A program made the position numbers and the translations under genes. The notes beneath the pieces were generated by a model. It worked only from the letters and a program-made list of their open reading frames with translations, was not told the origin of the DNA and made no database searches. DNA of 64,000 bases. Source: Isoetes taiwanensis. Lineage: Eukaryota > Streptophyta > Lycopodiopsida > Isoetales > Isoetaceae. Below, in pieces: positions 21,413 to 64,000 of this stretch. Within the stretch, counting starts at the first letter, position 1; every line of letters starts with the position of its first letter. The DNA lies in the NCBI GenBank assembly GCA_021234155.1, contig JAJEKV010000053.1, forward strand, positions 2,712,077 to 2,776,076, written 5' to 3'.

Positions 21413-21631
21413 ACACATGTAATACTGACATTGTTTTTTATTTATCTAACCACATGTAATACTGACATTGTTTTTTATTTATCTAACCACTCTAGGTACC
21501 TTTTGTATGATATTCTCATTTCTTCTTCATTATCTCCTAAGCCCAAAAATGAAGATGGTAATAATGGTCTCACTCCCAATGCAAACAAGAGAAGAAGTTA
21601 TTTATCAACATATAATATAATACATGTCACT

Positions 21632-44400: not shown

Positions 44401-44404
44401 TCCA

Positions 44405-46376
44405 CCTCCCATCCATGTTGCTAAACCTAATGTTGATGCCAATCTTGATCCTCAATCCCTATCTGCTGCACCTAGGAAGAAGAAATCAGGCCATGCAAAC
44501 CTCCAAACTAGACCAAAAAGAAGTCAGCCCAAAGATCTTGTTAGAAATGCAGCAAGGGGGGCTTGGACTGTGAAAGTTATGGAGGAAGCCATTGATGCAA
44601 TAGATGATGTTCTCATGTCTATTAGAGCTGCTGCTATTCATTATGGCATCCTCCAAACCACACTTAGAAACCATCTGTCAGGTTTAACCCAACACAAGCA
44701 TGGTTGCATTCCTAGGGCCTTGACTATTGATGAGGAAAATAGTCTTGCTGCTTGGGCTTTGCAGCAAGCTAATAATGGAAGGGCCATCACTTTAGAAATA
44801 TTTAGGGAAAGAGTGGCTGAGCTTGCAATTAACAGGCCTACAACTTTTGCAGATGGCTTGCCCGGCCAAAAATGGTGGAGAGGGTTCAAGAGAAGACACC
44901 CTGAGATCAGGCTCAGATCTGCCCAGCCAATTGAGGTGCTTAGAACCCGGGCCTTGACAACATCTAACCTGAACAACTTCTATGGCACCCTACAAAACAT
45001 TTACCGTAGTGTGCAGTTGGACTCCAGCCGAATTTGGAACTGTGATGAGACTGGGATCCAAGCTGGAGATAGGACTGGAATTAAGATGCTTGCCAAGTCC
45101 ACTAATCGATATGTTGGTGGCACTATTCCCAATAGTAGAGAGTGGGTGACACTCTTATGCTGTGTCAATGCTGCAGGCCAAAGAATACCTAACCTTTATG
45201 TCTTTTAAGGGAAGAGGATGAGGGACTGTAATGTGTTGGCAGGCTGTGAACCTGGTGCAGTCTGGTCATATAAAAAAAAAGCATGGATTACTGATGTCTT
45301 GTTTGCAGGTTGGCTTGATCACTTCAAAGCTTCAGTTCCAGGGGGGATTAGTCCACAAAGACCACACTTGTTGGTGTGTGATGGCCATGGCAGCCATGTG
45401 ACCATGGAGGCGATGTCCAAAGCTAGGGATATGGCTGCACAGTGTGCTACTCCCTCCACACACTTCTCACAAACTCCAGCCTCTAGATGTGTCTTGCTTC
45501 TCCCCATTCAAGCAAGCCTTCAGAAGATTAAGAGCCAAACTGATGCATACAACCAATTATGTTGAGCCATCCAAGCCAGATCTTGCTACTCTTGTTTACA
45601 AAGCTTGTGATGCAGCACTTACCCCTGAAAACATCAAAGCAGGATTCCAAGCAACTGGAATTTGGCCCTTTCTTGCTGATATGGTGCTACCAGACCCTAC
45701 TGCTGATCAGTATGCAGCAGAACATCCAGATGAGGAGGGGACTAGTGATGGGATTCTGACGTTGTATATGATAGAGTTGATCCCCCAGCCAATGAGGCTG
45801 AAACTAACAGTGACAATGTTGTTCCTGATTCTGAAGCACCTGCAGATGGCTTGCATGCACTAGCTGCTGCAATTGAGCAAGATAAAATCACTGAAATAGC
45901 TGCAGCAAATGAGGCAGTGGTAGTTGCAACACATGAAGATACAAGCAAGAAGGGAAAAGGTAAGCTTCCTCCTACTCTCAAAAAGAAGCTTTACATTACT
46001 AGTGATGAGTTTATGGCTGCAAAGAGAGATTACTTAAAGCAATTAGAGGAGGCAAAGGAAATTAGAAAGAAGCAAGTTGAAGAGAAGGCTAGGATAAGGG
46101 AGGAGAAGGCCAAAAAGAAAGAGGAAGAGAAGTTGAGGAAGGAGAAGGTAAGGTTGGAGAGAGATGAGAGGAGAAAGGCCAATGGGCCCGAGAAGAGAAA
46201 GAGAAAGAAGGGTAGGAAATTTGCTGAAAGTGATGATAGTGAAACTGATGAAGAAATTGAGATTGCCAACATAGAGGTTGCCTATCAAATGAGGAGCGGC
46301 AAACGTGTGAGGAAGTCAAGTTCAAAGGTCATTGAGGCTGCTGAGGCCAATGAAAGTGCTAAGGTACACTTAATTT
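44405..46376 (+). pseudogene. Jerky/pogo-type (CENP-B-like) DDE transposase
   Basis: The plus strand encodes a Tc1-pogo-family transposase. An N-terminal helix-turn-helix region lies around RAAAIHYGILQTTLRNHLSG, and a Tc5/CENP-B-type DNA-binding domain around GRAITLEIFRERVAEL and GQKWWRGFKRRHPEI. The DDE_1 core has WNCDETGIQ (45,036), VCDGHGSHVT (45,374) and LLPPHTSHKLQPLDV (45,445-45,490). A long charged C-terminal coiled coil follows (EEKAKKKEEEKLRKEKVRLE), then GKRVRKSSSK. Three frameshifts (near 45,205 in a T-run, near 45,440 and near 45,760) break it; the catalytic residues otherwise look intact. The coding stretch ends at a possible GTACAC donor (46,362), 40 bp before the terminal repeat of the next transposon, so that transposon may have landed in its intron. 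Terminal repeats of this element were not found. Confidence 0.85.
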
Positions 46377-46402
46377 GTGCTTACTATTATCTTTAGGATA
46401 AT

Positions 46403-46432
46403 AACAAAGTTTAAATTGAAACGCACTTATTT
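46403..46432 (+). repeat. Left terminal inverted repeat of copy A
   Basis: Thirty bases match the copy B termini with one or two differences. The similarity continues inward past position 46,500, through a short palindrome (GGAATCTTTGAAAGATTCC). Confidence 0.9.
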
Positions 46433-46796
46433 GCTCCAAACGCACTTCAAAAGGAATCTTTGAAAGATTCCCTAAAATTCCCTTAAAAAGTCCATTTTTA
46501 AGGTTTTTTCGTGACAGATGTAGGTACCCTTTTTGAGGGGTTGATTGAACATACCATCCATGCAAAAATTTTAAATAGCAATTTTCATCCTCCCAATTTA
46601 GAACAAAAAATAGTTACTTATATAAAGTGTAGCAAAAAGGGGGCAATAAAAAAAATAGCAAGGGTAGTAGAGTGACAAGGAAGTGATATATTCAAGGTTG
46701 TGAAAATTGTACAAAATTATGAACAAAATTGTAAAAAATATAGGACATTTTGACAAACCCTCATCACCTGCACTTTCTGTTCTTTACATGTTCGAG

Positions 46797-47068
46797 TCAT
46801 CGGACAAACTTACATTTTGCAGCAATATCAGGATGCATCTCATCCTCAGACTCATTTAATCCCTGATCACTTGAGCCTTCATCCTCAGCTTCACTCTCAA
46901 AACTGGATGTACTCGAACGATCTTCTTCCTCACTGTCTACAAGTGAGTCTTCATCATCATCTTTTTTGGCCACCTTTCTAGGTTGTTTGTCTAATCCACA
47001 TGCCGACCTTATTAAAGTTTGAGTGACCATACGTAACTTATTAGCGGCCGGTCGACAAAGTCATGTGC
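46797..47068 (-). pseudogene. Copy A putative transposase gene, C-terminal end
   Basis: The minus strand encodes the acidic C-terminus of the element's second gene (LVDSEEEDRSSTSSFESEAE ... DEMHPD), ending in a TGA at about 46,799, roughly 0.4 kb inside the terminus, as in copy B. The LINE insertion at 47,083 separates it from the rest of the gene (49,364-49,870). Confidence 0.8.
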
Positions 47069-47082
47069 AAGAACCTTTACTT

Positions 47083-49349
47083 TTTTTTTTTTTTTTTTTT
47101 TTTTGAAGAAACGGCAGAGATTGTATTAGTATATGAGAAAATTACATGATCATACATACAAAAAAACCATTGTAGGGATCAACCTTGCAATGGAAAAATG
47201 GTGATGGCTAGAGGACCACCACAAACCTTTTTTAGGGGAAGGATACCCGCTCAAAACAAAGGAAAAAGCACTTTTAAAAAATAGTTCGAGCATAGAGAAA
47301 GTCCAAAAGCTGGTCAACATTTTACGTAATATCGGGGACCCCTTCGAGATTGATTATAGCAAAGGCCTCCTCTCAGATGGACAAGCATCAGTCGTCAAGT
47401 TCATTCGCCCATAACCTCGTTGAATCCGGAGATACATAACCCAAGCATCACGAGCATCTTCATGAATTTTCAGCTTTGCTTGGAAGTAAGGTTTAATCTC
47501 CTGGATGAACCTCCGAAGATCTTCATCATTCAAATGGCCGGGTAAAGGTAATGCGGTGATAACCTCGCTTTTAAGCCGAGAAAAGTGCATCAATGGTTTC
47601 CAAAGGCGAGAGAGGAACAGTAGCAGGGATCAACCTCGCGGGCATGTCCTCCCTCATGGTGCCTCCTCAGCAGAAGCTCTGTCAAACAAAGAATCCACAT
47701 CATTAAAGAGCAAAGTGAAAAACTGAAAGAAACCATTGAAGTTTCCTAAGGAATCCCAGCGTCTGTTATAATTCAAGCCCTGCTTTGCCTTATGAGCCAT
47801 GGCAGCTTCAGCTAGGAGGACCTGAAAGGAAGCTTTGAGTTTATTCAGACTTGGGGCCGATCCAGAGATAGCAACTTCATTTCTATGTTTCCATATGGCC
47901 CAGCAAGAAAGGATCCGAATGGTTCCTTTGAAAGGGGAATTCTGATTTAAGTATTGTAGCAAGGAAGCCTCATCAATAGGAGTATGTTGCACCAGAGGTT
48001 GAATCCACTGCCAAAAAAGAGAAAGCCAAGGACAGAGGAAGACGTGTGAACTTGTTTCTGTGGAGCCACAGTCCATTGGACATAAATCAGAGATTTGATT
48101 GTTGAATTGGGCTCTGAAACCATTTGTTTTTAAACTTTTGTTCAACAGTAACCATCTAAAGAGCCCGATTTTGCTAGCACATTGAAGTTTCCACCCCTGT
48201 CTTATGATTTCAATAGCAAGATCCTGTTGGCAATTCCAAGCTCTGCTCACTTTTAATTGAGACCTGTCCAAAAGCATACTATAAATTTTAGAAACCTTAT
48301 ATGGACGCCCACCACAGGTCCAATTCTGAGCTTCATTTGCTTGTCCAACTGGGTTTCGGGTTAGAGTGGCATAGATGTTTCTGTTTGTATCCGTGTCAGG
48401 CAGGATTGAGGTGAGGTCTCCCCAATCTTTCCATTTGTCACCATTTTTCATGGAACCAATGGTATGCAGATCTGCATAGCACCATTCCTTATACTTAAGA
48501 GGATGTTTAAGGGCTAAACATCCCTCCTCTTCCTCGGTCAGGTCCTGATGCCAGAAGAAACTAAAATTATTACTAACAGAAGTCAAAGGCCGAGCTCTGA
48601 AGCAGGGAGATGCTTGGTTCCATGCAGAGAGAATTCTTCTCAAAATTTTGGATGTGCCTGGGGCAGCTTTAAGTTGAAAGAAAAGCCGAGTCGGGAAGAT
48701 GATGAGGGAGTGAAGGAGACCCTTCTAGAGATGTAACCCCGGCCGAAGACTTTTACCAATTTCAAAGGTCGAGAGAGGGGGCAAAGAGCATTAAAGATCT
48801 CCACTACTAGCTTTGCTTTGCGGGGCTTGTGCTTGGACAAAAAGGTCTTTTGCAGCCCGGACCTCCTTCTTTCCTAGGCGGTCAGACACTCCAGGAGACC
48901 ATTCTCGCACCTTGCGGATATAATCCCTCATGGCTGATTCTAGCTTCCTATAGGAGGATTTATCAGCAATGATGGCTGAAGAGAAAAAAATGTGTGTACT
49001 TGCAATCACACTATTAACAATCTCGACTCTTCCTGCAAGGGAAAGGGATTTAGGATACATTTGTATTTTTTTCCTCATCCTATTGACTATGGGATCCCAT
49101 AACCCTGCCAGATTCATATTAACTGCCAAAGGTAAGCCAAGTAATTTGGTGGCAGTTTTGTGACCTGTGACCTTTATTCCATGGATCTCGTCTTCCTCAG
49201 ATTGCAGGATAATTGTGCTTTTACTTTTATTCAAATGGACTCCTGATGCACCCCCAAAAAGATTTAGCATCTCCAGAAACTTTGGCAAACTGGAACCATC
49301 ATTTTGAAGGAAGGTAAAAGTATCATCTGCATACTGCATTATAGAGAAA
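47083..49349 (-). mobile_element. 5'-truncated LINE with poly-A tail and 14-bp target duplication
   Basis: The T-run at 47,083-47,104 is the poly-A tail of a minus-strand LINE. The 14-bp sequence AAGAACCTTTACTT flanks it at 47,069-47,082 and 49,350-49,363. Copy B has the uninterrupted site once, in the other orientation, at 59,556-59,569. The LINE begins just upstream of the reverse-transcriptase YADD motif, so most of ORF2 was lost on insertion. Confidence 0.95.
47654..48643 (-). CDS. LINE ORF2 C-terminal part with zf-RVT domain
   Basis: This 329-codon minus-strand frame is the region after reverse transcriptase in plant L1-type LINEs. It includes WTCGGRPYKVSKIYSMLL, WKLQCASKIGLFRWLLL and the zinc-binding zf-RVT motif around CPMDCGSTETSSHVFLCPW, then the ILSCWAIWKHRNEV helix. 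It is separated from the RT part (48,791-49,349) by a frameshift. A further segment at 47,354-47,593 may be the end of the same ORF. The protein is incomplete and inactive. Confidence 0.85.
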   Translation of the reverse strand: MRRILSAWNQASPCFRARPLTSVSNNFSFFWHQDLTEEEEGCLALKHPLKYKEWCYADLHTIGSMKNGDKWKDWGDLTSILPDTDTNRNIYATLTRNPVGQANEAQNWTCGGRPYKVSKIYSMLLDRSQLKVSRAWNCQQDLAIEIIRQGWKLQCASKIGLFRWLLLNKSLKTNGFRAQFNNQISDLCPMDCGSTETSSHVFLCPWLSLFWQWIQPLVQHTPIDEASLLQYLNQNSPFKGTIRILSCWAIWKHRNEVAISGSAPSLNKLKASFQVLLAEAAMAHKAKQGLNYNRRWDSLGNFNGFFQFFTLLFNDVDSLFDRASAEEAP

Positions 49350-50017
49350 AGAACCTTTACTTCAGCTAGATCTATGACAGCAGTGTTTGCTTTGGACTTT
49401 GCTCTCTTTCCCACTCTTGTTCTTACCGTCTCCAAAGTATAACTCCCACTGAAAGCATTGGCAGCATTTGTTCTCATCCAGTGCACTTTTAATTGAGTGG
49501 GAATTCCATCCCCTCTTGTTACCTCCAGTACTTTAGCTAGCCAGAATGGCTTCCCAGATTCATCATTATCAGCTGGGACAGCTATGAGCATTCCTATCTG
49601 AATCTCTGAGACTGAACCAGATACTCGAGCAACTTGTTGTGCCGTGCGTCTGGGGCCAGTGTACATGACTCTGTCATCTTCATCTGAGCTAGCCATTATC
49701 TCTACATGTTCCTCTTGATTCTCAACTTGCACAGGGAGAGTTGGCCTAGATGGCCAGTTGAATGTAACTGGTCTTCGACCTTGTAATGAAGCTTGCAACA
49801 TGTCACGTTGCCGAGAAAAAAACTGAGGCCACCATAAAGCATCTACCTCCCCAAAGTGGTTAGAGCATGACTGAAGCAAACCATCTCTTTGACACTGAGC
49901 ACGATTAAGAGGCCACCAAAAAATGAAGATGGGGTCAGAGTGCTTCAGGTCCGAAAGCTGTACGCGGCACATGTGGCTATCCTCAAGCAAAGAATGAGAA
50001 GGAATCCTCATGCCCAT
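48791..50017 (-). CDS. Chimeric ORF: transposase-gene tail fused in frame to LINE RT
   Basis: A single 408-codon minus-strand frame runs from antisense methyltransferase sequence (49,871-50,017), through the copy A transposase-gene part (49,364-49,870; SSDEDDRVMYTGPRRTAQQV, then the chromo/tudor-like GMLIAVPADNDESGKPFWLA and LKVHWMRTNAANAFSGSYTL), directly into the truncated LINE reverse transcriptase (YADDTFTFLQNDGSSLPKFL ... ). The fusion results from the LINE landing in the correct frame and an upstream deletion. No promoter is evident, so expression is doubtful. Confidence 0.75.
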   Translation of the reverse strand: MGMRIPSHSLLEDSHMCRVQLSDLKHSDPIFIFWWPLNRAQCQRDGLLQSCSNHFGEVDALWWPQFFSRQRDMLQASLQGRRPVTFNWPSRPTLPVQVENQEEHVEIMASSDEDDRVMYTGPRRTAQQVARVSGSVSEIQIGMLIAVPADNDESGKPFWLAKVLEVTRGDGIPTQLKVHWMRTNAANAFSGSYTLETVRTRVGKRAKSKANTAVIDLAEVKVLFSIMQYADDTFTFLQNDGSSLPKFLEMLNLFGGASGVHLNKSKSTIILQSEEDEIHGIKVTGHKTATKLLGLPLAVNMNLAGLWDPIVNRMRKKIQMYPKSLSLAGRVEIVNSVIASTHIFFSSAIIADKSSYRKLESAMRDYIRKVREWSPGVSDRLGKKEVRAAKDLFVQAQAPQSKASSGDL

Positions 50018-50587
50018 GTGTCGCCACTAGTTGTGATGGTAGACAGAAGTCAGTGCAACCAATTAAAAGATTATAGGAAGGCATATTTCGAAGATTACAC
50101 CTATTATGTTCTTGGAGGCACACATAGTTATAAAGCAAGAAAAGAACTTTCACAAGAAGAAAGCCGTAATGAAGTCTGGAAGAGCGTGGAAGCACATATC
50201 TACGTGGGGCTGACAGACGAAGAAGCAAAGGTCATTGCCGTGAGTCACAATCTCGACAATGACTTCAGATTAAAAATGAGCCTGATAGACAAGATCCGCT
50301 TTATGCACCGAGCGTGGAGTTCAAACAAATGCATGGAGAGGACTTTAAGAAGCAAAAGAACAAGCTCCAAGAGCTTCGAGAAGCTTGTGTCACATAGTGC
50401 TGCCTTAGTTACGATTCCGATAAGAAGCCTATAATGGCTGTAAAGCAGTACGACAATTACTTCCAGCTTGCCTTCCGAGATGGTCAAGTAAGTAAAACTT
50501 TTAATTATCTTTTAGTATGTTTAATGCGGAGTGAACTGTGCAGTGGCCTCAGACTGTATAAACTTATACCAACCTTGAAAGCAGGGC

Positions 50588-50768
50588 TCGGTATAAATTT
50601 ATACCATGCCTTGGCACGGTATAGACATGGTATAAATTTATACCGATACAACGCACGGTATAAATTTATACTGAGCCCTATACCGAACCTTGGCTCGGTA
50701 TAAATTTATACCGTGCTTTGGATCGGTATAAATTTATACCGTGCCTTGGCTCGGCATAAATTTAAGCC
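50588..50768. repeat. Palindrome array in copy A intron 2
   Basis: Six copies of GGTATAAATTTATACC or close variants, centred near 50,597, 50,636, 50,664, 50,704, 50,732 and 50,760 (spacings 28 or 40), lie in the intron between exons 2 and 3. Spacer words such as CTTGGCTCGG recur between them. Confidence 0.92.
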
Positions 50769-51501
50769 GAGCCCTGCTTTCAAGGTTAGGCTTTCAAGTT
50801 ACGCTACTCAACACTAAATTATTTGACTTCGACCATTAACAGGTTTGGGATCTTCAAGATGGTGAGCTTAAAGAACAAGCTAGCTCCACCGGAAGGAAAC
50901 CAAAAAAAAAATATTGAAGGAAAATAGAAAAACATGAGCATTGTACCCTGGACTCAGCTACAGGGTCTAAAAAGCAAAGAAATTTTCGTACGTCTCCTGG
51001 AGAAGGTTATGGCCAAGGAATTTACTCTGGATGAAATGGCCAAGGAAGCTAAAACGTAAGCCTTTTGTACTATGTTCTTTATTCCTCACTTCGTCTTACA
51101 ACCTCTTTCCTTTTGCAGTCAGAAAGACATTGTCACCTGCCAGTCGGAACTAATGAAGCAACTAAACTTAGAAGACTGGGAGGAGTGCAAGCTTCTTTAC
51201 CCAGTTTGTACGACAGACAGTACAATCAGGGAGCACGCAGTTAACTTCAGTGGCTGGGTAAGTTTTGCAGAAAACATGTTTTGTCTTTGTGCCTTTGTCT
51301 CACTGTTCTCTTACAGAACAAGAAGAAAGGGCTACCAGCAGGCTTTTTGAACCTGGTTCGTAGGGCCAAAGAGGAAAGGCAGAGACTTAAGGCCATTGAA
51401 CAGGGAAAAGAAGTTGGCCCCAGCAGTTTTGACACTAGCTATGAAAGATTTACAATGTTTGATCAGGACTGCTTGTACAAGGTTTCAGGGTGATTGCACT
51501 A

Positions 51502-51531
51502 AACAAGGTTTAAAATGAAACGCACTTATTT
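51502..51531 (+). repeat. Left terminal inverted repeat of copy B
   Basis: It matches the right end (60,230-60,259) with one mismatch over 30 bp. Subterminally it contains a shortened version of the palindromic AAAGATTCC region found in the other ends. Confidence 0.93.
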
Positions 51532-51979
51532 AAGAAGTGCGTTTGAAAGATTCCTTTATAAAAATTGGAAACTTGAAAAAAACAGACAAAATAGGGAGCA
51601 AAATAGATTGTTAAGCAATTAGCATTCGAAATACCCCCAAAAAAGCAACATTTTTGAAGCCTTTTCATTTTTTAAAGAGGAGAAAAAAAAAAAAGCTTGT
51701 TTTGAGGAGGGAGACATTAAATTTAAAAGCTGAATAAGTATTTATTGCTGAAAATAGAAGGAAATATAGTTTGTCTTTTTGCAAGCTTAATATAAGTACT
51801 AAGAAAATTAAACATAGGGAAGACAAAGAGTGTGAAATCATGGAGCAAGAAAGAGTTGCTCTAATTAAGCACTGTTGAAGAGACAAAGCTTTCAGATTAA
51901 AAATCATCATCAAAATATGTTATATTTCTTAGCACATAGTTTACAATGAAAGTTAGTTTGTAATCTTGACTGTATAAAT

Positions 51980-54900
51980 TTATACAACTGGTGGAGGAGG
52001 TGGTTCTTCCCAGTCCACAGGACTCTCGTACCCCTTAGGATCTGACTCTTGTGAGGGTATGATAGCAGAGATGCCTGCTTCTGATTCCAATGGCACAGGT
52101 ACAGGCTGTTTCTCTGGCTCGGGCACCACAGGCTCTAAGTCGACGAACTCCACCTCCTCATCTTTTCTTCCTGTAAGTGGAGGCTGGATTTCTGTGTAAG
52201 TGCCCTTAGCATCGCTAGCACCGTTCTTTGCTCCCAGTTCCTCGTTTTCATCAGGAAAGGATTCACAAGAGCTTATCCCGGTCCCCGATGAAACTTACTT
52301 TATTTGGGTCTATGTCGATCGAGAGGCGACATTGCGGCCCTCGCTTAAGGGCGCAAATCTGGCACATGGTGCCCGATCCGAGAAAAGGCATCTAAGATCC
52401 GGTCTCGAGGCGAAAACCATCAGATCAAATTATTAATAAGCCCATTTGTGGCTTGATAATGGGACACCACGGCGCCTTGTCATTTGTGGGTCTCTTAATT
52501 TCTGCGTAACAATTTGGGAACCGAAATGCATTGCGGGGAGGAGTCTTCTCATTCTGCGTGTTGAAATGAACCATGGTTTTTGGTGTCCGCTACCGTGTAA
52601 AACCTATATGAAAATGCTCAAAACAACTCACTAAGCGCGGACCACCACCATGACCCTTGACGTTTGTTTTAAGCCTGCCAAGCAAAGCAGCAATAAAAAA
52701 TTAGTAGAAAGAAAACAAGGAAAATAAGTTACCCCAGTGGTGTGGCGGTATAAACTTATACCACGGTTTCCTTGCTGTATAAATTTATACCACGCGGCAA
52801 GCCAGTATAAATTTATCTCTGAACATTGCTAATTTGTATAAATTTATACCACGGTTGTTCCAGCCTTTAAAATTCAAACCTTAAGACAGATGTGGTATAA
52901 ATTTATACCTAGGAGTTAATGTAAAAAAAAAAAGCGTTAAATGTAAAGCTTACCAAACGCAGTTTTCGAAGCCAGCGTTGCAGACAGCTCCCATAGGTTT
53001 AAGCACCGACATCGTCTGCAGGTCGGAATGAAAAATAATGACCCTCCAGTTTTCAGATGTCGTGACTTCTTTTAGGCCATCCAAGAAAGAACGGACTTGC
53101 ACGTGAGTGAAAGCCTCCTCGTCAAAAGCGCTATCCTTGATTTTGAAGCCATAAGGAATATCTGCAATGCATAATGTAAAATTTTGTTTGTCTAAAAGAG
53201 TCCCCAATCTTGTGCAGTCACCCTGAACAACCCTGTACTGGACGTCCTGATTAAATGTAGTAAATCTCTCGTAAGTAGTGTCAAAACTGGAAGTGGCGAC
53301 CTCTTTACCCTGTTCAATTGCCTTAAGCCTTTGCCTCTCCTCCTTGGCCCTACGAACCAGGTTTAAGAATCCAGTTGGTAGCCCCTTCTTCTTGTTCTGT
53401 AAGAATAATGTGAGACAAAGGCACATAGACAGAACATATTTTATGCAAAACCTACCCAGCCACTGAAGTTAACAGCGTGCTCTCTGATGATACTATCTGT
53501 GGTGCAACTTGGGTACAAAAGCTTGCACTCCTCCCAGTCCTCTAGGTTGAGCTGCTTCATTAACTCAGCCTGGCAGGTGACAATATCTTTTTGACTGCAA
53601 AGAAAATAATATTGTAAGACAAAAAAAGGTAGAAACAACACGGCAAAGCAAGTGGGGCTTACGTCTTAGCTTCCTTAGCCATCTCGTCCAATGTGAATTC
53701 TTTGGCAACTACTTTTTCCAACAGGCGAACAAATATTTCTTTGCTTTTGAGACCCTGTAACTGCGTCCAGGGTACAATGCTCATATTTTTTTGTTTTGAT
53801 TCACCACCTTTCTTTGGTTTCTTTCCTGCGGCGCTAGCTTGTTCTTTAAGCTCATTATCCTCGAACATACAGAAAATCCTCTCTTGAAGATCCCACACCT
53901 GAAAATGGTCAGACGAAGTTTAGTGTTGATTGGCGTAAGAGAAAGGACATTGGATCGAGTCGGCGGTATAAATTTATCTGTGTGCGGTCGCAGGTATAAA
54001 TTTATCGCGTGCCGTCGCGGTATAAATTTATACCGCGTGCTCGGCCGCAGATAAATTTATACCCCGGAGGGCACCGGTACAAATTTAGACCGCGACCGAA
54101 TGGTATAAATTTATACCGGCCAGACGCGGTATAAATTTATCCCGCGACACGGCGCAGGTATAAATTTATATGCGGGGCCCGACGCGGTATAAATTTATAC
54201 CGTGACTCGTCACTTGTAACCACGCTAAACAAACTACAAAAGACAGAAAGAAAGCATTTACTCACTTGACCATCTCTAAATGCGAGCTGAAAGTAGTTAT
54301 CGTATTGTTTTACTGCCATAATGGGCTTCTTATCAGAGTCATAACTGAGGCAGCACTCTGTCACGCAGGCTTCTCGAAGTTCCTGCAGCTTGTTCTTTTG
54401 CTTTTTAAAATCCTCTCCATGCGCTTGTTTAAATTCCACGTACTCACGGTGCATGAAGCGGATCTTGTCTATCAAACTCATCTTCAATCTAAAGTCATTG
54501 TCGAGATTATGACTCACGGCAATGACTTTTGCTTCTTCATCTGTTACACCCACGTAGATGTGCGCTTCCACACTCTTCCACACTTCGTTACGGCTTTCTT
54601 CCTTTGCTAGTTCTTTTCTTGCCTTGTAACTATGTGTGCCACCAAGAACGTAGTATGTGTAATCTTCAAAGTCAGCCTTCTTATAATCTTTTAGTTGGTT
54701 GCACTGACTCCTGTCCACCATAACAACTAGTGGCGACACATGGGCATGAGGATTCCTTCTCATTCTTTGTTAGCCACATGTGCCGCATACAGCTTCCGGA
54801 CCTGTAGCACTCTAACCCCATCTTCATTTTTAGGTGGCCTCTTAATAGTGCTCAATGTCAAAGATATAGTTTGCTTAAGCAGTTTAGTTTCATTCACCCG

Positions 54901-55686
54901 CTTAAGAATAGCACTTGATTTATCTGTGGGCTTCACAACAATATCTGCACCAGGAGCCTTCTGAAGTGCTTCTGCTGACTCCTCTATAGTCAATTGCTTT
55001 GTGGTTCTAGACCTTTTTTTTGTGGGAGCCTGTGTATCTACTACCAGGGAATGCTTCCTACCCTTTCCCTTTGGTATTACTATATCCTCCTCTTCCTCTT
55101 CTTCTTCTACTTCCTCAATTTTTTCTTCCTCATCGTTAGGAGTGGGGTACCACAGACCTTTGACCAACACCTTGTCTTCGCAAAGCACCACTGACATCAA
55201 AATGTCCACCAGGATCCCCCCTATCTGAATGTCTGCGGGGTTAAGTTAGGAGGATGACGGTATAAATTTATACGCAAGCCACTAAGAATAACTTACATAG
55301 CCGCCCTTGTAATTTTCAGATATGTACTCATGCACGTCTTTGGGCTTGCACATGCTTAATCTAAGCATTTTACTGTTAAGAACATAAAAGACTTCCCCTT
55401 TGTCATGCATGCACTTCATTAAAATTTCATCTTCGTTTTCTGTAGTAGCCAGGTTTATAATTTCGCCGGCAGGATAATAATCATCGGCCTTGTACTTGCC
55501 CTTCCCTGACTGATGGCACAAGTACAGGTACGCCTCAGTTGGTTTGCTCTCTCTTGCTCCCCTGTGGACGTACCACGTCTGGTCTGTTAGTTCGTACGTC
55601 TGTGGCTCTATTGGTGCAGCCTTTGAAGATTGGCCTTTCTGTACAAATTTTATCCTTGGGCCGGAACTGTGCGTTAAAAAACCCAT
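51980..55686 (-). CDS. ParB-like domain/amino-type DNA methyltransferase, six exons
   Basis: Six minus-strand exons with phase-consistent GT-AG borders: 55,686-55,297; 55,224-54,266; 53,898-53,663; 53,594-53,456; 53,396-52,954; 52,674-51,980 (about 950 codons). Order of parts: N-terminal unknown region (YELTDQTWYVHRG); acidic stretch and basic nuclear-signal-like KGKGRK and KKRSRTTK; ParB-like fold (VSPLVVMVDRSQCNQLKDYK, YYVLGGTHSYKARKEL, DEEAKVIAVSHNLDNDFRLK); linker; motif IV ADIPYGF; motif-VIII-like VWLKTNVKGHGGGPR; FEHFHIGFY; C-terminal motif I DAFSGSGT; acidic tail. Motif IV before motif I is the order of beta-class m4C/m6A methyltransferases. ParB plus methyltransferase is a known bacterial/phage pairing (COG1475 with COG0863). 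Damage: a 7-bp loss near 54,770 relative to copy A and several indels in exon 6. The target base is unknown. Confidence 0.85.
52747..52909. repeat. Palindrome array in copy B intron 5
   Basis: Five TATAAATTTATA-type palindromes lie in the intron between exons 5 and 6. The same intron of copy A carries its own array at 62,889-63,049. Confidence 0.92.
53965..54201. repeat. Palindrome array in copy B intron 2
   Basis: Nine palindromes have centres 26-29 bp apart (near 53,972, 54,000, 54,026, 54,055, 54,083, 54,109, 54,135, 54,164 and 54,193). The spacers are GC-rich (GCGGTCG-like). It occupies the same intron as the copy A array at 50,588-50,768. Confidence 0.93.
55257..55274. repeat. Single palindrome in copy B intron 1
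   Basis: One GGTATAAATTTATACG unit sits in the short intron between exons 1 and 2. Confidence 0.85.
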
Positions 55687-55890
55687 TTTTTAAGTAAGAA
55701 AGCGAAACATTTTTCGACTTTTTGACACACAAAAACAGTAAAAACAGAGGCTAGAAGGGCATAAAATCCACAATAAATTAACACTTCTTTTGTCTTATTT
55801 AAGCTTAAAACACAACAATGTTACTAAAATATTAAGGTTCAGGTCCATATTTTAAGCGCTAGACACCAATTTTCCGAAACTATTTTGAAA

Positions 55891-56224
55891 CGGTATAAAT
55901 TTATATAAGCCGAGCAAAGCGGTATAAATTTATCTTGAGAGATGGCTCGGATCGATATAAATTTAGACGCCTTGTGCTCGAGCGGTATAAATTTATACCG
56001 TTCCAGAACACATTCGGTATAAATTTATACCGCAAGTGTTCTTGAACGGTAAAAATTTAGACCGCTCGTGTATCCAATGCAGATAAATTTATACCGCTCA
56101 AGAACACTAGCGGTATAAATTTATACACGAATGTGTTCGAACGGTATAAATTTATACCGCCGAAAGCACAAAAGTGCGTATAAATTTATACCGATCCAGA
56201 GCCATCTCGGTATAAATTTATACC
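55891..56224. promoter_or_regulatory. Phased array of 11 palindromes between the divergent genes
   Basis: Eleven copies of GGTATAAATTTATACC or near variants are centred at 55,899.5, 55,928.5, 55,961.5, 55,991.5, 56,023.5, 56,055.5, 56,087.5, 56,119.5, 56,150.5, 56,184.5 and 56,216.5. The mean spacing is 31.7 bp, three turns of B-form DNA. It lies about 200 bp upstream of the methyltransferase ATG and about 480 bp upstream of the second gene's ATG. Each unit contains TATAAAT on both strands. It could be a bidirectional promoter, an operator array for an element protein, or a transposase-binding region. The function is inferred from position and spacing only. Confidence 0.85.
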
Positions 56225-56519
56225 GTGGGGGCTTACACTCTAACAGATTAAAACAAAATGGAAACTAATACGATGCGGAAAGTAGACTTACGTGGCCATG
56301 ACCGTATGAACTAAGCGTATAGACGCGTTAGGAGAGCAAATAAGAAGGGGTATATAAATTTTTTGGACCATGACATGGCCTATCTCGACTCGAATTCATC
56401 TTTGCGTATATGGAAAATAGGGTGGCGGTCTTGCGGGCTTAAGTACCCCATATATCTAAGTGCCGCTAAGTATAAGCGTTTCTCCATAAAGTTTCTAATA
56501 CAAGTGTCTGTGAGTTTTA

Positions 56520-56685
56520 GGTATAAATTTATACGTTTTACGTTCTATGTTGCCCTCCTCTGTAAAAAATTTATACCATCTTATAAATTTTTTTCTTTTT
56601 TTTTTTTTCCCTTTCTGTATAAATTTATACCATCTATATAAATTTATACCGTCTGTTCTTACGTGTAGTATAAATTTATACACGA
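56520..56685. repeat. Second, looser palindrome cluster upstream of the plus-strand gene
   Basis: Four TATAAATTTATA-type units and partial units (AATTTATACC) lie within the 190 bp before the ATG at 56,708, mixed with a T-run at 56,592-56,608. Confidence 0.85.
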
Positions 56686-56707
56686 TTATGCCGCTAACTT
56701 TCTGAGT

Positions 56708-59700
56708 ATGGCTCGAGAGAAAAGAACCGCAGAGCCTCCAACTCCTGTTCGCAGGCTCCCTCCTGCAATGACTTTCACACCTCCTCAACAGACACCAGGA
56801 AGTAGTCACGAATATTCTAGCTCCGACATTCCAACACCCAGCTCTGTTGAGCTTACTCCAGCACGACCACCTCGGCTTCCACCACCAGTTCAATTTACTC
56901 CACCACACCACCTCCCTCACGAGCGTCGTTTGCCCCCACCAATGCGTTTTACTCCACCACAGGCTAGAGAGCTCGGACTACCTACTCCAGTTCATTTTAG
57001 TACATTAAGCCCATAGTCCACAAGTAGGCTCCCTCCACGGAGGCAAATCACACCAACTCCATCCATTTCGCTAAATGGTACTACAACAAGTGGGAGCAGT
57101 CAGCGACACGCAACTCCTGTGTTCTACGACACTTCAGGAGCTGGTCAACTACGTCACCAACCTCGATTACTTTTTCCCAGAGAGAGGGAAAGCACCTCCC
57201 CCCAGGACTTGACCACATCAAACCTCTCAGCATCTACAAGCACACCTCATGTTGATCTTTCAGACGAAGAAACACCTCATGTTGATGTCTCAAACGAGGA
57301 CCTACCAAAGCCACAAGACTCCATGTTCGAATTCAAAGCCCCTGCAAGTAAGAATCTTAAGCGTAACTTACACAAGAAAGCATGTATACAACCGTTAGAA
57401 GAAAGAAACTCATGGACGAGGCTCACTTGCGGGCAACACATACAAAGCACTGTTGTTCTCAACGTTGTTTGCTTAAGATTGGACTAAAGGAATTGAGGTT
57501 GATTAAATGATAGTTCTGAGTTCAATGACTCGCTAGACCAAAGGGGCTACTTAGCCTTCAATATTAGGCCGATGATGGTGAGAAGTTTACTTACACATTG
57601 GTGGCCACACCACAATCAAAACGACCTTCAAATTGATTCATGCTTTAGGCGTGACGACTTGACCGCTGAAGAAAAGGCTTGACAAGAATCCGGGCATCAA
57701 TGACTCTTGCCATTCGGGGAGGCATAACCGAAATTCATGCCCTTCAATGTGTTTTCTGGATGGAAGGTTTCTTTAAGGAGTCTTGTGAGAAACTCCCTAA
57801 CAGCCCTATATACCACTTGAGTGACAATTTCCGCGAAACAAGAAGTCTACGATAATTATAAGGAGATGTGTGTTGAGGCTTGGAGAACGGCTTTATGCTG
57901 CTACTCTTACTTTCTTGTGCTCGGAAAAAGAGTTTTCTCGGCGTGTCCATTCCTAGAAAGCATAGGATGTCTGTTTGTGCTACATGCTCAATTAAAAGCT
58001 TCGAGACAAAATGCAAGGACACTTCACACACTAAAAGTAAGCTTCGGGGACGTGTTCTTGCCTAGTTCTACTTAAAAGTAGGTTCTTTCCTAAACATATT
58101 TTCATTTTAGGATGCATTGAAGGAGAAACCCGAACAAACCACAGAGAGAACAACAATCTTTGGAAAGGAGAAAATTGACAAAACATAGGAAGAAAAGACC
58201 GGAACAACCACTCAACTACATATCGGTTGTTATTGATGGAATGGACGGAAGAAGACCACCCTACCACATTTTGTCAATGTGCCTAAGGATCTTCTTGAAG
58301 AAGATTTCATACATCCGCATGTTGTTGGTGCTATGGTATTTAATGGAAAACTCTCTTGCAAGGCATTTTTGAATTATCCAAATATTCATGCTGATCCAAA
58401 TCTCACTATCACAATATTGAATAAGCTTCTTTCCAATCTAGAACATATACCCACCGTTCTCAGATCTTGACTAGACAACACGACAAGGGAAAATAAGAAT
58501 CAGTTGTTTGCTTACATTGCTATGCTAGTAGTAGAAACAAATCTTCAAGAAGGTGAAGATTGGTTTCACCGCTTGTTGGTCATACACACGATCAAATTGA
58601 TCGGATGTTCAAGTGGGTTCTCTAAGCGTCTTGCTTTCGAAAAAAGCTCTCGACCTACCAAAGAATGATTGAGGTTATCCAAGATTCCTACAATCCTCGT
58701 CCGGACATCGAGTTATTGGAAGAAACTTATGATTTCAAAGAATGGATTTTTCTGAGAGATCAACTGGTCACCGTGCTATTGAGCCCTTGAGAAACATTAC
58801 ATTTCAGCATCGGATCAAAATTTCACTTGAAGATGGCAAGGCCATCTTACAAGGAAAGAAATATGCCACATCCTTGCGATGGCGACCAAAGTATTATTCA
58901 ATTCATTAGCACCATCCCCAATACTAGTTCCATGCTCTCTGCCCGAAAAAATGCCTCTAAAAAGCTTGAAAGAAATCACAAAGAGTAAAAAGGAGGGAAG
59001 AGCATTTGACTCAAACAAATCATTGGATTATATTGAGACAAGTATTGGTCATGCTCTAACCACTTTGGGGGAGGCGAGATGCTTTATGGTGGCCTCAGTT
59101 TTTTTCTCGACAGCGTGACATGTTGCAAGCTTCATTACAAGGTCGAAGAACGGTTACATTCAAGCGGCCATCTAGGCAAACTCTCCACTGTGCAAGTTGA
59201 GAATCAAGAGGAACATGTAGAGATATTGGCTAGCTCGGATGAAGATAATGAGTCATGTACAGCGGCCCCAGGCATACGGCACAACAAGTTGCTAGAGTAT
59301 CTGGTTCGGTCCGGAGATTGAAAAAGGAATGCTCATAGCTGTCCCAGTGATAATGATGAATCTGGGGAAGCCATTCGGCTAGCTAAAGTACTGGAGGTAA
59401 CAAGAGAGGATGGAATTCCCACTCAACTAAAGGTGCACTGGATGAGAACAAATGCTGCCAGTGCTTTTAGTGGGAGTTATACTTTGGAGATGGTAAAAAC
59501 AGGAGTGGGAAAGAGAGCAAAGTCAAAGCAAAGCAACTTTGTCATAGATCTAGCCAAGTAAAGGTTCTTGCATATGGCTTTGTTACATTGCTTTGCTAAT
59601 AAGTTACGTATGGTCACTCAAACTTTAATAAGGTCGGCATGTGGATTAGACAAACAACCTAGAAAGGTGGCAAAAAAAGATGATGATGAAGACTCACTTG

Positions 59701-59846
59701 TAGACAGTGAGGAAGAAGATCGTTCGAGTACATCCGATCTTTGAGAGTGAAGCCGGGATGAAGGCTCAAGTGATCGGGGGATTAAATGAGTCTGAGGATG
59801 AGATGCATTCTGATCTTCTTTCGCAAAATGTAAGTTTGTCCGATGA
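56708..59846 (+). pseudogene. DUF7869-like putative transposase gene of copy B
   Basis: The ATG at 56,708 opens a proline-rich N-terminus with a repeated R-x-L-P-P-x-x-x-F-T-P-P motif. The frame continues past one TAG (57,014-57,016, CAG-to-TAG type) to 57,487. Further on, across many frameshifts, come a Cys-rich part (near 57,450 and HRMSVCATCSIKSFE near 57,960-58,005) and a putative DDE-like core: NYISVVIDGMD (58,213), HPHVVGAMVFNGKLSCKAFL (58,312), LDNTTRENKNQ (58,471) and VGHTHDQIDRMF (58,575-58,610). I recall this core as Pfam DUF7869, a transposon-associated domain of uncertain activity. A chromo/tudor-like module (AKVLEVTREDGIPTQLKVHW, about 59,380-59,440) and an acidic tail end at the TGA at 59,844-59,846. 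It is divergent from the methyltransferase gene. It is the likely transposase, inactive here. Confidence 0.72.
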
Positions 59847-60229
59847 CTTCGAACATGTAAAGAACGAAAGTCACGAGTGATGAGTGTTTGTCAAAATGTC
59901 CTATATTTTTGACAATTTTGTTCATAATTTTGTACAATTTTCACAACCTTGAATATATCACTTCTTTGTCACTCTACTACCCTTGCTATTTTTTTTATTG
60001 CCCCATTTTTTCTACACTTTATAATAGTAACTATTTTTTGTTCTAGTTTAGGAGGATGAAAATTGCTATTTAAAATTTTTGCACGAAAGTTATGTTCAAT
60101 CAACCCCTCAAAAATGGTACCTAAATTACTTAAATTGTCACACCTGTCACAAAAAAATCTTAAAAATGGACTTTTTAAAGGGAATTTTAGGGAATCTTTC
60201 AAAGATTCCTTTTGAAGTGTGTTTCCAGC

Positions 60230-60259
60230 AAATAAGTGCGTTTCATTTTAAACTTTGTT
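60230..60259 (-). repeat. Right terminal inverted repeat of copy B
   Basis: It is the reverse complement of the left end with one mismatch, followed by the ACTA duplication. Inward similarity to the copy A left end continues for several hundred bases (60,259 back to about 59,590, against 46,403 to 47,068). Confidence 0.93.
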
Positions 60260-60414
60260 ACTAGGCTGGGGACACTTTTGGACAAGCAAAATTTTACTTT
60301 GTGCATAGCAGATATGCCATACGGCTTCAAAATTAAAGATAGCACCTTCGATGATGAAGCCTTCACGCACGTGCAAGTTCGTGCTTTTTTGGACGGGCTA
60401 AAGGATATCACGAT

Positions 60415-61464
60415 CAGGGATCGGTTCAATACTGTATACGTTTTATACTCAATACGTATTATTCGAATAATACGGCACTAATTTGAAATATAATACATCA
60501 AAAATATGGCAAAAAAAAATTCCGGCGTCGGAAATTTTTTGGCGTAAAACAAAACCGGTTTAAACTACGCTGAAACTCTTCGGCGATAGCTTAAACCTTG
60601 TTTCCCTTATTTTTACGTAAAGCGAAACTGAAGGTTTAAACTACAAAACTTCCATAGCATAGCGAAGGTTCGGCATCTCAGCTCTCCTCTGCACTTGCTA
60701 TACGTGATTCTGATCCTTCTGCTGCATGTGGTCGCTTTGCTCCACTTCAGTGGGCTGATTTAGCTGAAGATAATACTGTCTTGTCGAAGGACCAAGTTAC
60801 ATCTTCAAACTCTCCTGAGATTCCGGTAATTATATCGGATTTGACGCCATTACAGATTGAGTGCGGTTAGACTCTTAAGCAGACCTTATCTCCTTTTACT
60901 TATCTAGTATGGAGTAAGCACATGGTGTCGCAGGCTCGTGTTCCAGCAGCATCTTCTTGTGTTTACACAACTAGATGAGAAATATTCATTTTGTACTTAT
61001 TCTTGCTCATTAATAAACTTTTTGTTCGTCCTTCAAAAAAAATAAAAATAAAAAATAAAAAAAAATTGGCATTTCCTTTTTTTTTTTTTATTTTCCTTGT
61101 AAAGCAGTTATTTAAACTTCTGCTGAAGAAGATTTTGCTTACGCGAAAAAAAAAAATTCAAAAAAAAAGATTTGAATTTCGGCGTTTAAACCCAAAAACT
61201 TTTTTTCGTTTAGCAAAAGCTGAAGGTTTTGCTTATCACGATCTTCGGTTGCTTATCGCGATTTTTTTTTTTTTTTTAAGTTTCGCGTACGCTTACGCGA
61301 AAAAAGTTTCGCGTAAGCGAAACTAAAGGTTTCGCTTACGCAAAAAAAAATTTTTCCGGCCGGTAGGTTAAAAATACAAAAAATACATATTTAACCTAAA
61401 AATACGTATTTTTGGACTTTATACATCTGGAAAAATAATTTTGTACGTACAGAACCTATCCCTG
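60415..61464. mobile_element. hAT-like non-autonomous element in exon 5 of copy A
   Basis: The termini CAGGGATCGGTTC and the reverse complement of CAGGGATAGGTTC face inward. The flanks are ATCACGAT (60,407-60,414) and GTCACGAT (61,465-61,472), an 8-bp duplication with one mismatch. Removing it restores the exon reading AAGGATATCACGATATCAGC. Both the 8-bp duplication and CAGGG ends fit hAT. The interior has no transposase, only GTTTAAAC- and GCGAAAC-type inverted repeats (61,185-61,345) and a nested retroposon. Confidence 0.85.
60672..61067 (+). mobile_element. Short poly-A retroposon nested in the hAT-like element
   Basis: GGCATCTC (60,672-60,679) and GGCATTTC (61,068-61,075) flank about 390 bp ending in an A-rich tail (61,035-61,065). 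A 60-codon frame inside (RFAPLQWADLAEDNTVLSKD) resembles the start of plant LINE ORF1 proteins. It is probably a fragment of a LINE. Confidence 0.6.
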
Positions 61465-61590
61465 GTCACGATATCAGCAAACTGGAGGGTTATCATTTTT
61501 CATTCCGACCTGCAGACGATGTCGGTGCTTAAACCTATGGGAGCGGTCTGTAACGCCGGCTTCGAAAACTGCGTTTGGTAAGCTTTAAAT

Positions 61591-62856
61591 TTATTAGCAT
61601 TCTGCAGGATGGAGCATCTTCTCCTGCGGCGCTGTTGTTGCAGTCTCTTCGCCATTGTGTGGCATTCGGGAAGCCGTCTGTGCATGTGGAGTTGCCTTTG
61701 GCACTGTTGTATGGTCTCTGGCCTTTCCCACATGCATCCCCTTTTCTCACAGGAGTGTTGCGGGCTTGGGATCATGTGTGTGTGCTCTTCTTGCTAGATT
61801 ATGCCTCAGTTTATCACCACTCTTCTCCTTTCTTGTGGGTTCCTCTACCCCCTGCGCACTTGCCCGTGCATGCTTTCCTTGGCGCGAGCCCGTTGGGCGG
61901 ACTCTTTGTGCTCACCTTGGAGGATTGGTATTGGGGTGGTCAGCTAGCCGTGGGAGTTCTTTTGAGCTGGCTTTACGCTGAGGCGTGGCCAGGGCTATCA
62001 CGGGAACCGCGTGGCGGTATTCAACTTCACATACCTATAGTCCCTCGGGGATGATGTGGTGGTGCGGGTTTGGAAGGTTCATCCTGATGTTGTGTCTTCT
62101 TGCTTTGTGCGGTCTTCTTCACCAGGGTCTGGCCATTCATGACACCACTTGCCCCCTTCCAGCAAGCGGTCTCTGCGACTTCGGGGTTCGATGGCCTTCG
62201 GTTTGGGCGTGGACATGGAGCTCACTTCCCCACCAAAGTTAGGGTGCTTACGTGGCGGGGTGATGCCTGCATTGTATCGGGGGTGAATGCCCTTGTGAGT
62301 CGGTTTAGGCGGGTGTGAGCCCTCTCGCCCTTGTTGTGGCCTTCATCATGAGGCGTGGGCATTATGCGGTTTTATGCCCTCACTTGCCCGGTGCACAGGG
62401 GATTGGGTTAGGGCTCTCTGTTTGAATTGAGATTGACTAGCCGGCGATTCTTTTGCTTCATATTATCACGGTGCTTGGCAGCTCTTGCGGCGAAAGAAAC
62501 CTACATCTGTCGCGTGGCTTGGTTGGTGTAGCTGATTTGGAAGCGGCGGTTGTGGATCTTTTAGGGGATTCGGCGACTGCGGCCTCTCGATTCTAGACTC
62601 ATGTACAAGCTATTTCAAAGCTTTCTGGTGTTCCCGGGAGTAGTAGAGCGGAAGTTTGCCATTTGGCGGGACTTCTTGGGTGTTGTAGATGGTGATGGTC
62701 GGTTTGTACAGCAATAGAGTTGCAGTTTTTCTGTGAGTTTGTTGTGGAGTGTCGAGGTATCGCTGTCTCTTTGGGGCAGTTCTCCTTCCTCCTCACTTGC
62801 TTTGTAACATTACCATTCTTTTAATATATTGATGACACAGTTCTTCAAAAAAAAAA
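61591..62856 (+). mobile_element. GC-rich retroposon (LINE-like) in intron 5 of copy A
   Basis: This insert interrupts the intron between GTAAGCTTTAAATTTATT and the palindrome array. It ends with CAGTTCTTC plus an A-run (62,847-62,856), like the 3' end of a non-LTR element. Approximate flanking repeats are TTTATTAGC and TTTTATTGC. Its GC content is clearly higher than the surroundings. Overlapping open frames (for example 61,575-62,054) lack a motif I recognise, so the family is uncertain. Confidence 0.6.
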
Positions 62857-62888
62857 TTTTATTGCTTTTCTATTTACTGTAACTCCAT

Positions 62889-63049
62889 GGTATAAATTTA
62901 TACCACAGTTGCCTTAAGGTTTAAATTCATACGGATGGATCAATCGTGGTATAAGTTTACACAGCAAAGCAACCTTCGTATAAATTCATACGACATGGCA
63001 CCGTGGTATAAATTTATACAGCAAGGCAACCGTGGTATAAATTTATACC
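62889..63049. repeat. Palindrome array in copy A intron 5
   Basis: Palindromes near 62,889, 62,950, 63,004 and 63,034, plus diverged units (TAAATTCATACG), lie in the same intron that carries the copy B array at 52,747-52,909. Confidence 0.9.
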
Positions 63050-63787
63050 TCCACACCACTGGGCTAACTTATTTTTATTGTTTTCTTCCTACTAATTTTT
63101 AATTGATGTATTGTTTGGCAGGCTAAAAACGAACGTCAAGGGTCATGGTGGTGGTCCGCGCTTAGTGAGCTGTTTTGAGCATTTCCATATAGGTTTTTAC
63201 AGCACGGACGCCAAAAAGACCATGGCTCATTTCAATATACAGAATGAGAAGATCCCTCCCTGCAATGCTTTTTCAAGACCGGCTGTTTACGCAAAAGTTA
63301 AGAGACCCACGAGACAAAGGCGTTGTGGTGTCCCATTATCGAAAACCACGAGGCTTATTAATAACTTAATACGATGGTTTTCGCCCGACCGGATTTTGGA
63401 TGCTTTTTTCGAACAGGCACCACGGCAATTTATTTATATAAAGCGGTGGGCTATAATGTTGTCTCTGTCGACATACACCCTAATAAAATAAGTTTCATCA
63501 GGACCAGGATAAGCTCTTGTGAATCCTTTCCTGATGAAAACGAGGAACCGGGAGCAAAGAACGGTGCTGGCGATGTTAAAGGCACTTATACAGAAATCTA
63601 GCCTCCTATTACGGGGAGAAAAGACGAGGAGGTGGAGTTTGTCGACCTGGAGCCTGTGCCGGAGAAACTGCCTGCGCCAATAGGATTGGAATCAGAAGTA
63701 GGCGTCTCCGCTGTTGTGTCCTCGCAAGAGCCAGATCCTAAGGGGTACGAGAGTCCTGTGGACTGGGAAGAGCCACCTCCCGTATGA

Positions 63788-64000
63788 GTTTATACAGACA
63801 GAATTATAAACTTCTTTCATTGTAAACTATGTGCTAAGAATTATAATATATTTTGATGAAAATTTTTAAACTGAAAGCTTTGTCTCTTCAACAATGCTTA
63901 ATTAGAACAACTCTTTCTTGCTCCATGATTTCACACTCTTTGTCTTTCATATGTTTGATTTTATTAGTACTTATATTAAGCTTGCAAAAAGACAAACTAT
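63788..64000. other. 3' flank of copy A methyltransferase gene
   Basis: It is homologous, in opposite orientation, to 51,770-51,979 of copy B (TAAACTATGTGCTAAGAA, AAGCTTTGTCTCTTCAACA). The similarity shows that copy A continues past the window edge toward its right terminus. Confidence 0.9.

Follow-up and report, generated by a model that had tools for sequence, protein, structure and literature searches.

Transposons that carry a ParB-like protein joined to a DNA methyltransferase have been described in algae: Sola1-1_Ec32 of Ectocarpus, a 21.5-kb Sola1 element, encodes a ParB-like and N4-cytosine/N6-adenine (N4C/N6A) methyltransferase protein, and similar proteins are reported from green and red algal transposons (PMC12477816). 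The kind is thus already known, and ours is not the first case. More distant precedents are the retrotransposons of dinoflagellates and charophytes that encode C5 methyltransferases (PMC5890265) and viral mariner elements with methyltransferases (PMC3627910). In the VANC/VANDAL system of Arabidopsis, introns and other non-coding regions of the elements hold arrays of a motif, and these arrays differ between copies (PMC5735166). Here, we analyse a 64,000-nucleotide stretch of the Isoetes taiwanensis genome (contig JAJEKV010000053.1, positions 2,712,077 to 2,776,076; hereafter the window, in whose coordinates all positions are given), which contains one such transposon inserted in an older copy of itself. 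The locus bears on the open question of whether eukaryotic mobile elements write DNA marks of their own other than 5-methylcytosine. We infer, with moderate confidence, a family moved by a DUF7869 protein, in which a ParB-methyltransferase under selection would pair with the element's own palindrome, be catalytically active and methylate the element's own copies, to their benefit.

The younger, inner element and its boundaries are as follows.

51502-60259, no strand: inner DNA transposon, end to end, 8758 bp, both genes broken (called from terminal inverted repeats, target-site duplication, empty site and copies)
51502-51531, plus strand: left terminal inverted repeat, 30 bp, pairing with 60230-60259
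60230-60259, minus strand: right terminal inverted repeat, 30 bp, pairing with 51502-51531
51498-51501, no strand: ACTA target-site duplication, left copy
60260-60263, no strand: ACTA target-site duplication, right copy

The two 30-bp repeats are 97% complementary. When the flanks of the element are fused with a single ACTA, they align across the junction, without a break, to the paralogous exon within the inner element, which shows that the element inserted into a methyltransferase exon belonging to another, older member of the family. The initial annotation, made from the sequence alone, had described a complete 8.76-kb element with inverted repeats and an ACTA duplication. Its ends and coordinates proved exact and the empty site could be reconstructed; "complete" holds from end to end but not for the genes, both of which carry stops and frameshifts. 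It had also rightly seen two divergent genes; the ParB-methyltransferase gene lies on the minus strand and the DUF7869 gene on the plus strand. Strong target immunity, or strong protection from self-insertion, is disfavoured because the inner element sits within the outer copy.

46404-51501, orientation opposite to the inner element: outer (older) copy, left part, without the part matching 54880-59047
60260-64000: outer copy, right part, continuing past the window end, with insertions at about 60414-61464 and 61594-62857

The outer copy thus runs in reverse orientation from 46404 to beyond 64000. It lacks the 4.2 kb that match 54880-59047, so that only the 3' parts of both genes remain, and the claim that a second copy carries the same pair of genes does not stand. 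Similarity between the two copies is uneven: the ends, the DDE tail, exon6c and the 3' untranslated region (UTR) are 92-94% alike, the middle exons and introns 68-87%, which suggests from the alignment that one of them may be a recombinant copy. Synonymous change in the exons also exceeds change in two short introns.

The family was then sought in the host genome (1,658,258,908 bases in 1110 contigs). Using the first 199 bp of the left end as query, 40 scored matches among 1181 candidates were obtained at 95-100% identity, far beyond chance. The 20 best, the window itself excluded, were retrieved, a choice that favours young copies. Seventeen run end to end with both gene regions, with lengths of 8.3-9.3 kb and some internal gaps or inserts. 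All 17 are bounded by perfect 4-bp target-site duplications, the sequences of which differ between copies; the left repeat has 0-1 mismatches in all of them and the right repeat in 16, with 8 in L028. The remaining three are L022, nearly complete and cut at the end of its stretch, L010, matched over 4.7 kb, and L013, over 0.8 kb. Terminal inverted repeats together with a duplication of fixed length in many copies are the mark of cut-and-paste transposition: 51502-60259 is a DNA transposon, and it belongs to a high-copy family. Its 4-bp duplication has the length found in Sola2 elements (PMC3627910), one of the characters of the Sola superfamily. The inner element and the 17 end-to-end genomic copies were aligned and are referred to below as the 18 copies (median identity 88.6%).

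The association of gene and element was also examined from the opposite direction. A query with the ParB exon reported 151 matches in the genome (2986 candidates, 150 scored), from which 10 loci were chosen by hand down the match list and only short stretches at the expected end positions were retrieved. At least one element end, with 0-2 mismatches in 30, is present at 9 of the 10 loci (the minimum in 50 shuffles of one stretch was 11), and both ends at three, two of them with matching 4-bp flanks and one without. Gene-less copies with the methyltransferase residing elsewhere, which the initial annotation had named as the case that would speak against it, are thus not what these samples show: 17 of the 20 copies retrieved by their left end span both gene regions. 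The ParB-methyltransferase gene and the element mostly travel together.

Reading the exons by GT-AG boundaries, homologs and selection gives the following gene.

51980-55686, minus strand: ParB-like/beta-class amino-methyltransferase gene, about six exons
55686-55297, 55224-54266, 53898-53663, 53594-53457, 53396-52954 and 52674-51980, minus strand: its exons
54266-54879, minus strand: ParB/Srx-fold part, motif GGTHSYKA
52954-53396, minus strand: exon with methyltransferase motif IV, ADIPYG
52300-52400, minus strand: methyltransferase motif I region, FLGSGT, 3' of motif IV, frame broken

The reading frame of the inner copy is shifted near 54770 and within the last exon. The predicted structure of the ParB exon has the alpha/beta fold of the ParB N-domain, and the PHROG ParB profile is weakly matched in three of six members (best E 3.7e-4). 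Its motif GGTHSYKA is found in the window and in 16 of the 18 copies, and most relatives having that part read GG[TC]HS or GDTHS. A Pfam match to IgA0_D2 was rejected as the identity of this exon, as it lies below the cut-off (best E 1e-3) and is contradicted by the fold. The motif IV exon matches the UPF0020 methyltransferases just below the cut-off (E 4.2e-4), and motif IV precedes motif I, which lies in the next exon; the order is the same in relatives having both. The N6_N4_Mtase family (PF01555), which in relatives covers the motif I part, is matched above the cut-off in three of nine and in three of ten relatives, best in P0031 (E 7.8e-19), and is unmatched by the broken window exons themselves. 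A full-length model of relative P0002 has a predicted local distance difference test score (pLDDT) of 45, so that its fold matches are no more than supportive. The low-confidence model is matched best by CcrM, which methylates adenine at N6; enzymes acting on N4 of cytosine follow among the other matches, and the bdelloid N4CMT structure 8s9o stands at rank 41. The structure-prediction check that had been proposed therefore bore out the ParB fold, in one good model of five, and for the methyltransferase returned a low-confidence, supportive model. Together, fold and homology support an accessory gene made of a ParB-type module fused to a predicted beta-class amino-methyltransferase, and the arrangement first noted, with motif IV (DIPYG) before motif I, is recovered by exon reading, profiles and fold.

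Among annotated proteins, those most closely related to the methyltransferase come from ferns. For the motif IV exon, the closest relative compared is P0009 (37% identity, against 28% for P0002); P0009 and P0046, the only relative of the transposase, are European Nucleotide Archive (ENA) records with three member sequences each. The first methyltransferase exon of the window has no BLASTP relation to P0003 (E 0.31). Searches with P0009 returned a single weak locus (L001) in viral contigs and no match in prokaryote genomes, and tblastn against phages found distant methyltransferases only.

We next asked whether the gene has been under selection. Firstly, the inner and outer copies were compared. 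The ParB exon has 64 changes, of which 57 are synonymous; the null distribution averages 19.7 and does not exceed 31 in 2000 draws. Exons differ in strength of signal: the tail has 17 of 34 (null 10.7) and exon6c 6 of 8 (null 2.7), and for each about 30 of the 2000 null draws attain as many. In the other gene, the C-terminal part has 14 of 31 (null 8.3), attained in 27 draws of 2000. The ParB exon has a Nei-Gojobori (NG86) omega of 0.014 and the compared exons together one of 0.059, with synonymous sites near saturation; the C-terminal part of the DUF7869 gene has 0.33. Secondly, among the 18 copies, variants present in at least three copies, which reflect the older, active lineage, were set against those seen once, which mostly reflect decay after insertion. 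The count excludes variants carried by just two copies, as well as the motif I portion with which the last exon begins; sites are taken as independent and copies as equally related, so that the P values are optimistic. In the methyltransferase gene, shared variants number 220 synonymous and 157 nonsynonymous, compared to 176 and 377 for singletons (P 7e-16). All seven stretches show this trend, with P between 0.031 and 1e-6 and the strongest contrast in the ParB exon (49/13 against 36/55); in the motif IV exon the counts are 47/38 and 29/70.

These results bear on two alternatives. The gene might be a captured passenger without a role in the life of the element; transposons often acquire genes, and most copies are broken, the ParB exon being open in 5, the motif IV exon in 4 and the last exon in 1 of the 18. 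Against this, both the shared variants and the comparison within the window point to purifying selection, and the position and orientation of the gene are constant in the 17 end-to-end copies, which makes a passenger very improbable. Because of this selection, we conclude from the sequence comparisons that the ParB-methyltransferase gene has worked for the element and is not mere cargo. Alternatively, the enzyme might be catalytically altered or act on RNA or protein, the fusion serving mainly as a DNA-binding regulator of the element's promoter. At the catalytic [DNS]PP[YF] position the protein indeed reads DIPYG or DAPYG, with the second residue changed from the canonical DPPY, and relatives with EAPYG and DALYG, one of each, occur. 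We nevertheless consider an altered enzyme improbable: among known proteins it resembles DNA amino-methyltransferases most, 14 of the 18 copies retain ADIPYG, and the exon that carries this motif is under selection. Fold, homology, copy structure and selection thus support the earlier proposal of a eukaryotic transposon with its own DNA-modification protein, in which a binder of ParB type is included.

The other striking property of the element, on which the initial annotation is silent, is a palindrome with the core TATAAATTTATA, often extended to the 16-bp GGTATAAATTTATACC, which occurs exactly at 129 places in the 18 copies. In the window it is arranged as follows.

55889-56225: palindrome array, shared promoter region
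56516-56682: four further palindromes 5' of the DUF7869 gene
53967-54199: palindrome array, intron 54265-53899; each of the 18 copies has 2-10 sites
52749-52907: palindrome array, intron 52953-52675; each of the 18 copies has 3-5 sites
55259-55274: single palindrome in intron 55296-55225, one in each of the 18 copies
51971-51986: single palindrome over the methyltransferase stop codon, counted as 3'UTR, one per copy in the 18 copies
50557-50738: palindrome array in an intron of the outer copy, with spacers and spacing unlike its inner counterpart
62891-63047: palindrome array in the second array intron of the outer copy

Allowing at most one mismatch, the window has 39 sites, 29 in the inner element and 10 in the outer copy, and none in its other 46.4 kb; the inner element would be expected to contain 0.05 by chance (40 first-order resamples, maximum 1). 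At two mismatches there are 54 sites, 6 of them outside the copies. The 18 copies together hold 471: 250 in the intergenic/5'UTR region (7-16 per copy), 113 and 72 in the two array introns, 18 in the third intron and 18 in the 3'UTR feature, which overlaps the stop codon in the inner copy. Thus, as in VANC-targeted elements, the arrays lie in non-coding parts, 453 of 471 sites being in methyltransferase introns or the shared promoter/5'UTR and 18 at the stop codon/3'UTR; in the 18 copies the transposase gene, the right end and all remaining exon features are free of it. The exact core is present in 338 of the 471 sites, compared with a median identity between copies of 88.6%, a proportion enriched by construction since at most one mismatch was allowed. 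Neighbouring sites lie about 29 bp apart (median of the 280 gaps of at most 45 bp), and 231 of the 280 spacers are distinct. The flanks of the 17 genomic copies (21,364 bp) contain three palindromes, all at L015, possibly in another nested element.

ParB, Noc and KorB bind short palindromes that are often clustered, which is why we read the arrays as cognate sites, and their location in the shared promoter and the methyltransferase introns suggests regulation or protection of the element's own expression. By analogy, gene and palindrome clusters together suggest that the element may mark itself chemically. A DUF7869 transposase would move the family; the ParB part would recognise the 16-bp palindrome and, by binding, bring the methyltransferase to the element's own copies, where it would write N6-methyladenine (m6A) or N4-methylcytosine (m4C). 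The likely benefit would be control of the element's own promoter and escape from host silencing, a logic resembling that of VANC, its closest functional analogue, but with a writer enzyme. The fully parS-like version, in which the ParB-type protein of this land-plant family loads onto the arrays and writes m6A/m4C, and the self-made mark counters host silencing, we put forward more tentatively, as a possibility that may well prove wrong.

Several results weigh against this self-marking proposal. At the level of the proteins, the best of five ParB models reaches a pLDDT of 69.6 and the other four 40-50; Pfam ParBc is unmatched at E up to 0.05-1 in the window exons and their relatives; and the cytidine triphosphate (CTP)-binding motif, GERR-like in canonical ParB, is replaced by GGTHS, closer to sulfiredoxin. 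The gene model of P0031, the best PF01555 match, lacks motif IV. None of the 18 copies has an open DUF7869 core; the variants of this core run opposite to those of the methyltransferase (shared 6/15, singletons 14/15), and the transposase as a whole shows no clear difference (17/25 against 22/49, P 0.21). One of the 10 ParB loci lacks either element end within the narrow stretches retrieved. At the level of the arrays, the CpG excess is mostly the motif itself: the observed/expected ratio is 1.95 and 1.89 in arrays (360-bp windows outside: median 0.45, maximum 1.22), and with motifs masked it is 0.90 in the promoter, 1.18 (inner) and 0.69 (outer) in the larger array intron, 0.45 and 0 in the other array intron, and 1.31 in the 5'UTR. 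We therefore dropped the CpG excess as a protection footprint, the footprint being ambiguous once masking lowers it.

The core also contains TATAAA on both strands, as two back-to-back boxes, a possible core-promoter signal. The palindromes might accordingly be promoter/TATA signals, or sites of the transposase or a host factor, with the ParB-methyltransferase acting elsewhere, for example at the terminal repeats; that the largest group of sites (250 of 471) is intergenic/5'UTR fits such a role. However, 221 of the 471 lie in methyltransferase introns or at the stop codon/3'UTR. Transposase sites are normally located at element ends, whereas in the inner copy about 470 bp separate the left end from its nearest palindrome, and for the right end this distance is 3.6 kb. 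We regard this as a serious though unlikely explanation. It is also conceivable that the arrays are a chance, satellite-like expansion in one element lineage. Tandem arrays expand easily, and the conservation of the two single-copy palindromes does not clearly exceed that of the non-coding DNA around them (0.978 against 0.987; 0.957 against 0.944). Yet the same core recurs at five separate places in 18 of 18 copies, and the spacers between sites are unlike one another, so that chance expansion appears quite improbable, slightly more so than an altered enzyme. Recognition of the palindrome by the element's own protein thus remains the reading that we prefer.

The partner gene is the probable transposase of the family.

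56708-59870, plus strand: divergent gene, DUF7869 core at about 58250-58660, probable transposase, many stops, end approximate

The DUF7869-like core first noted there is matched by PF25273 in the window (E 7.7e-14) and, intact, in P0046 (E 1.1e-53), the single match in the protein search. P0046 displays acidic motifs by eye (VIDGMD, LDNTTREN and GHTHDQID) and shares the C-terminal module of the gene at 46% identity. We call the gene a probable transposase because of these motifs and because it is the only other gene seen in an element with terminal inverted repeats and target-site duplications. The C-terminal module had been called chromo/tudor-like; although conserved, it receives no Pfam or PDB-sequence support in the relative P0046, for which a PDB sequence search gave no meaningful relative. 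Membership of KDZ was rejected, the sole Pfam match at E up to 1 being DUF7869, in the window core and in P0046 (of these two queries, the former comes from a broken gene and the latter is perhaps incomplete). A search of viral contigs with P0046 found no match. Selection is clearer on the methyltransferase gene than on the transposase (57412-59760), with its core open in 0 of 18 copies. Many copies may have moved in trans.

Other repeats also occur in the window. The outer copy contains a piece of a long interspersed nuclear element (LINE) and two further insertions. The former, at about 47083-49348, is a LINE-type reverse transcriptase fragment with RVT_1 below and zf-RVT above the cut-off; the insertion at 60414-61464 has CAGGGAT...ATCCCTG-like ends and a probable 7-8-bp duplication and looks hAT-like by eye. 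A Pogo/Tigger-like transposase gene (HTH_Tnp_Tc5, Psq, DDE_1) occupies 44390-46396, and the outer copy was inserted into or beside its 3' part. A satellite tandem array with a unit of about 305 bp and 74-85% internal match covers 1-11514. The open reading frame at 20981-21445 has, by eye, the UDP-glycosyltransferase-like motif HCGWNPMLES and no Pfam match at E 0.01. A scan of the window found no RNA family and no tRNA.

How does this family compare with known systems? With bacterial ParB-parS, Noc and KorB it shares the ParB fold and a clustered short palindrome as the candidate site; it differs in having GGTHS in place of the GERR-like motif, in the methyltransferase fusion and in being a nuclear transposon. 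Bdelloid N4CMT and the Marchantia N4C methyltransferases are likewise bacterial-type amino-methyltransferases in eukaryotes, and are known as host genes, not as transposon-borne ones. VANC, to our knowledge, is not a ParB-methyltransferase. VANC/VANDAL nonetheless resembles our family in combining an element-encoded accessory protein with a short motif arrayed in non-coding DNA, in arrays varying by copy, but VANC acts by making the DNA lose methylation, and a directional nonamer takes the place of our 16-bp palindrome (PMC5735166). The retrotransposons with C5 methyltransferases are also eukaryotic mobile elements with a DNA methyltransferase of their own; they differ in being retrotransposons and in methylating cytosine at C5, and the accessible sections describing them do not mention a ParB module (PMC5890265).

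Closest of all is Sola1-1_Ec32, a DNA transposon in which a ParB-like domain and an N4C/N6A methyltransferase are transcribed opposite to the transposase, and whose authors likewise propose binding and marking of its own sequence (PMC12477816). The host lineage is different, the element measures 21.5 kb there and 8.8 kb here, and the accessible description mentions no palindrome arrays, selection tests or DUF7869 partner (PMC12477816). Palindrome arrays, selection on a gene of this type, a DUF7869 partner and a land-plant host all went unmentioned in the open-access literature searched, in which DUF7869 itself did not appear either; these four aspects look new. The family offers a concrete test, in which protein and candidate site are both defined and the many copies carry arrays of differing size, so that binding, and methylation in native reads, can be checked directly. 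If our reading is right, a ParB-type DNA binder, and possibly a sequence-addressable epigenetic writer, would be added to plant biology, and the class of transposon accessory genes described, as far as the accessible report goes, in algae would extend to land plants.

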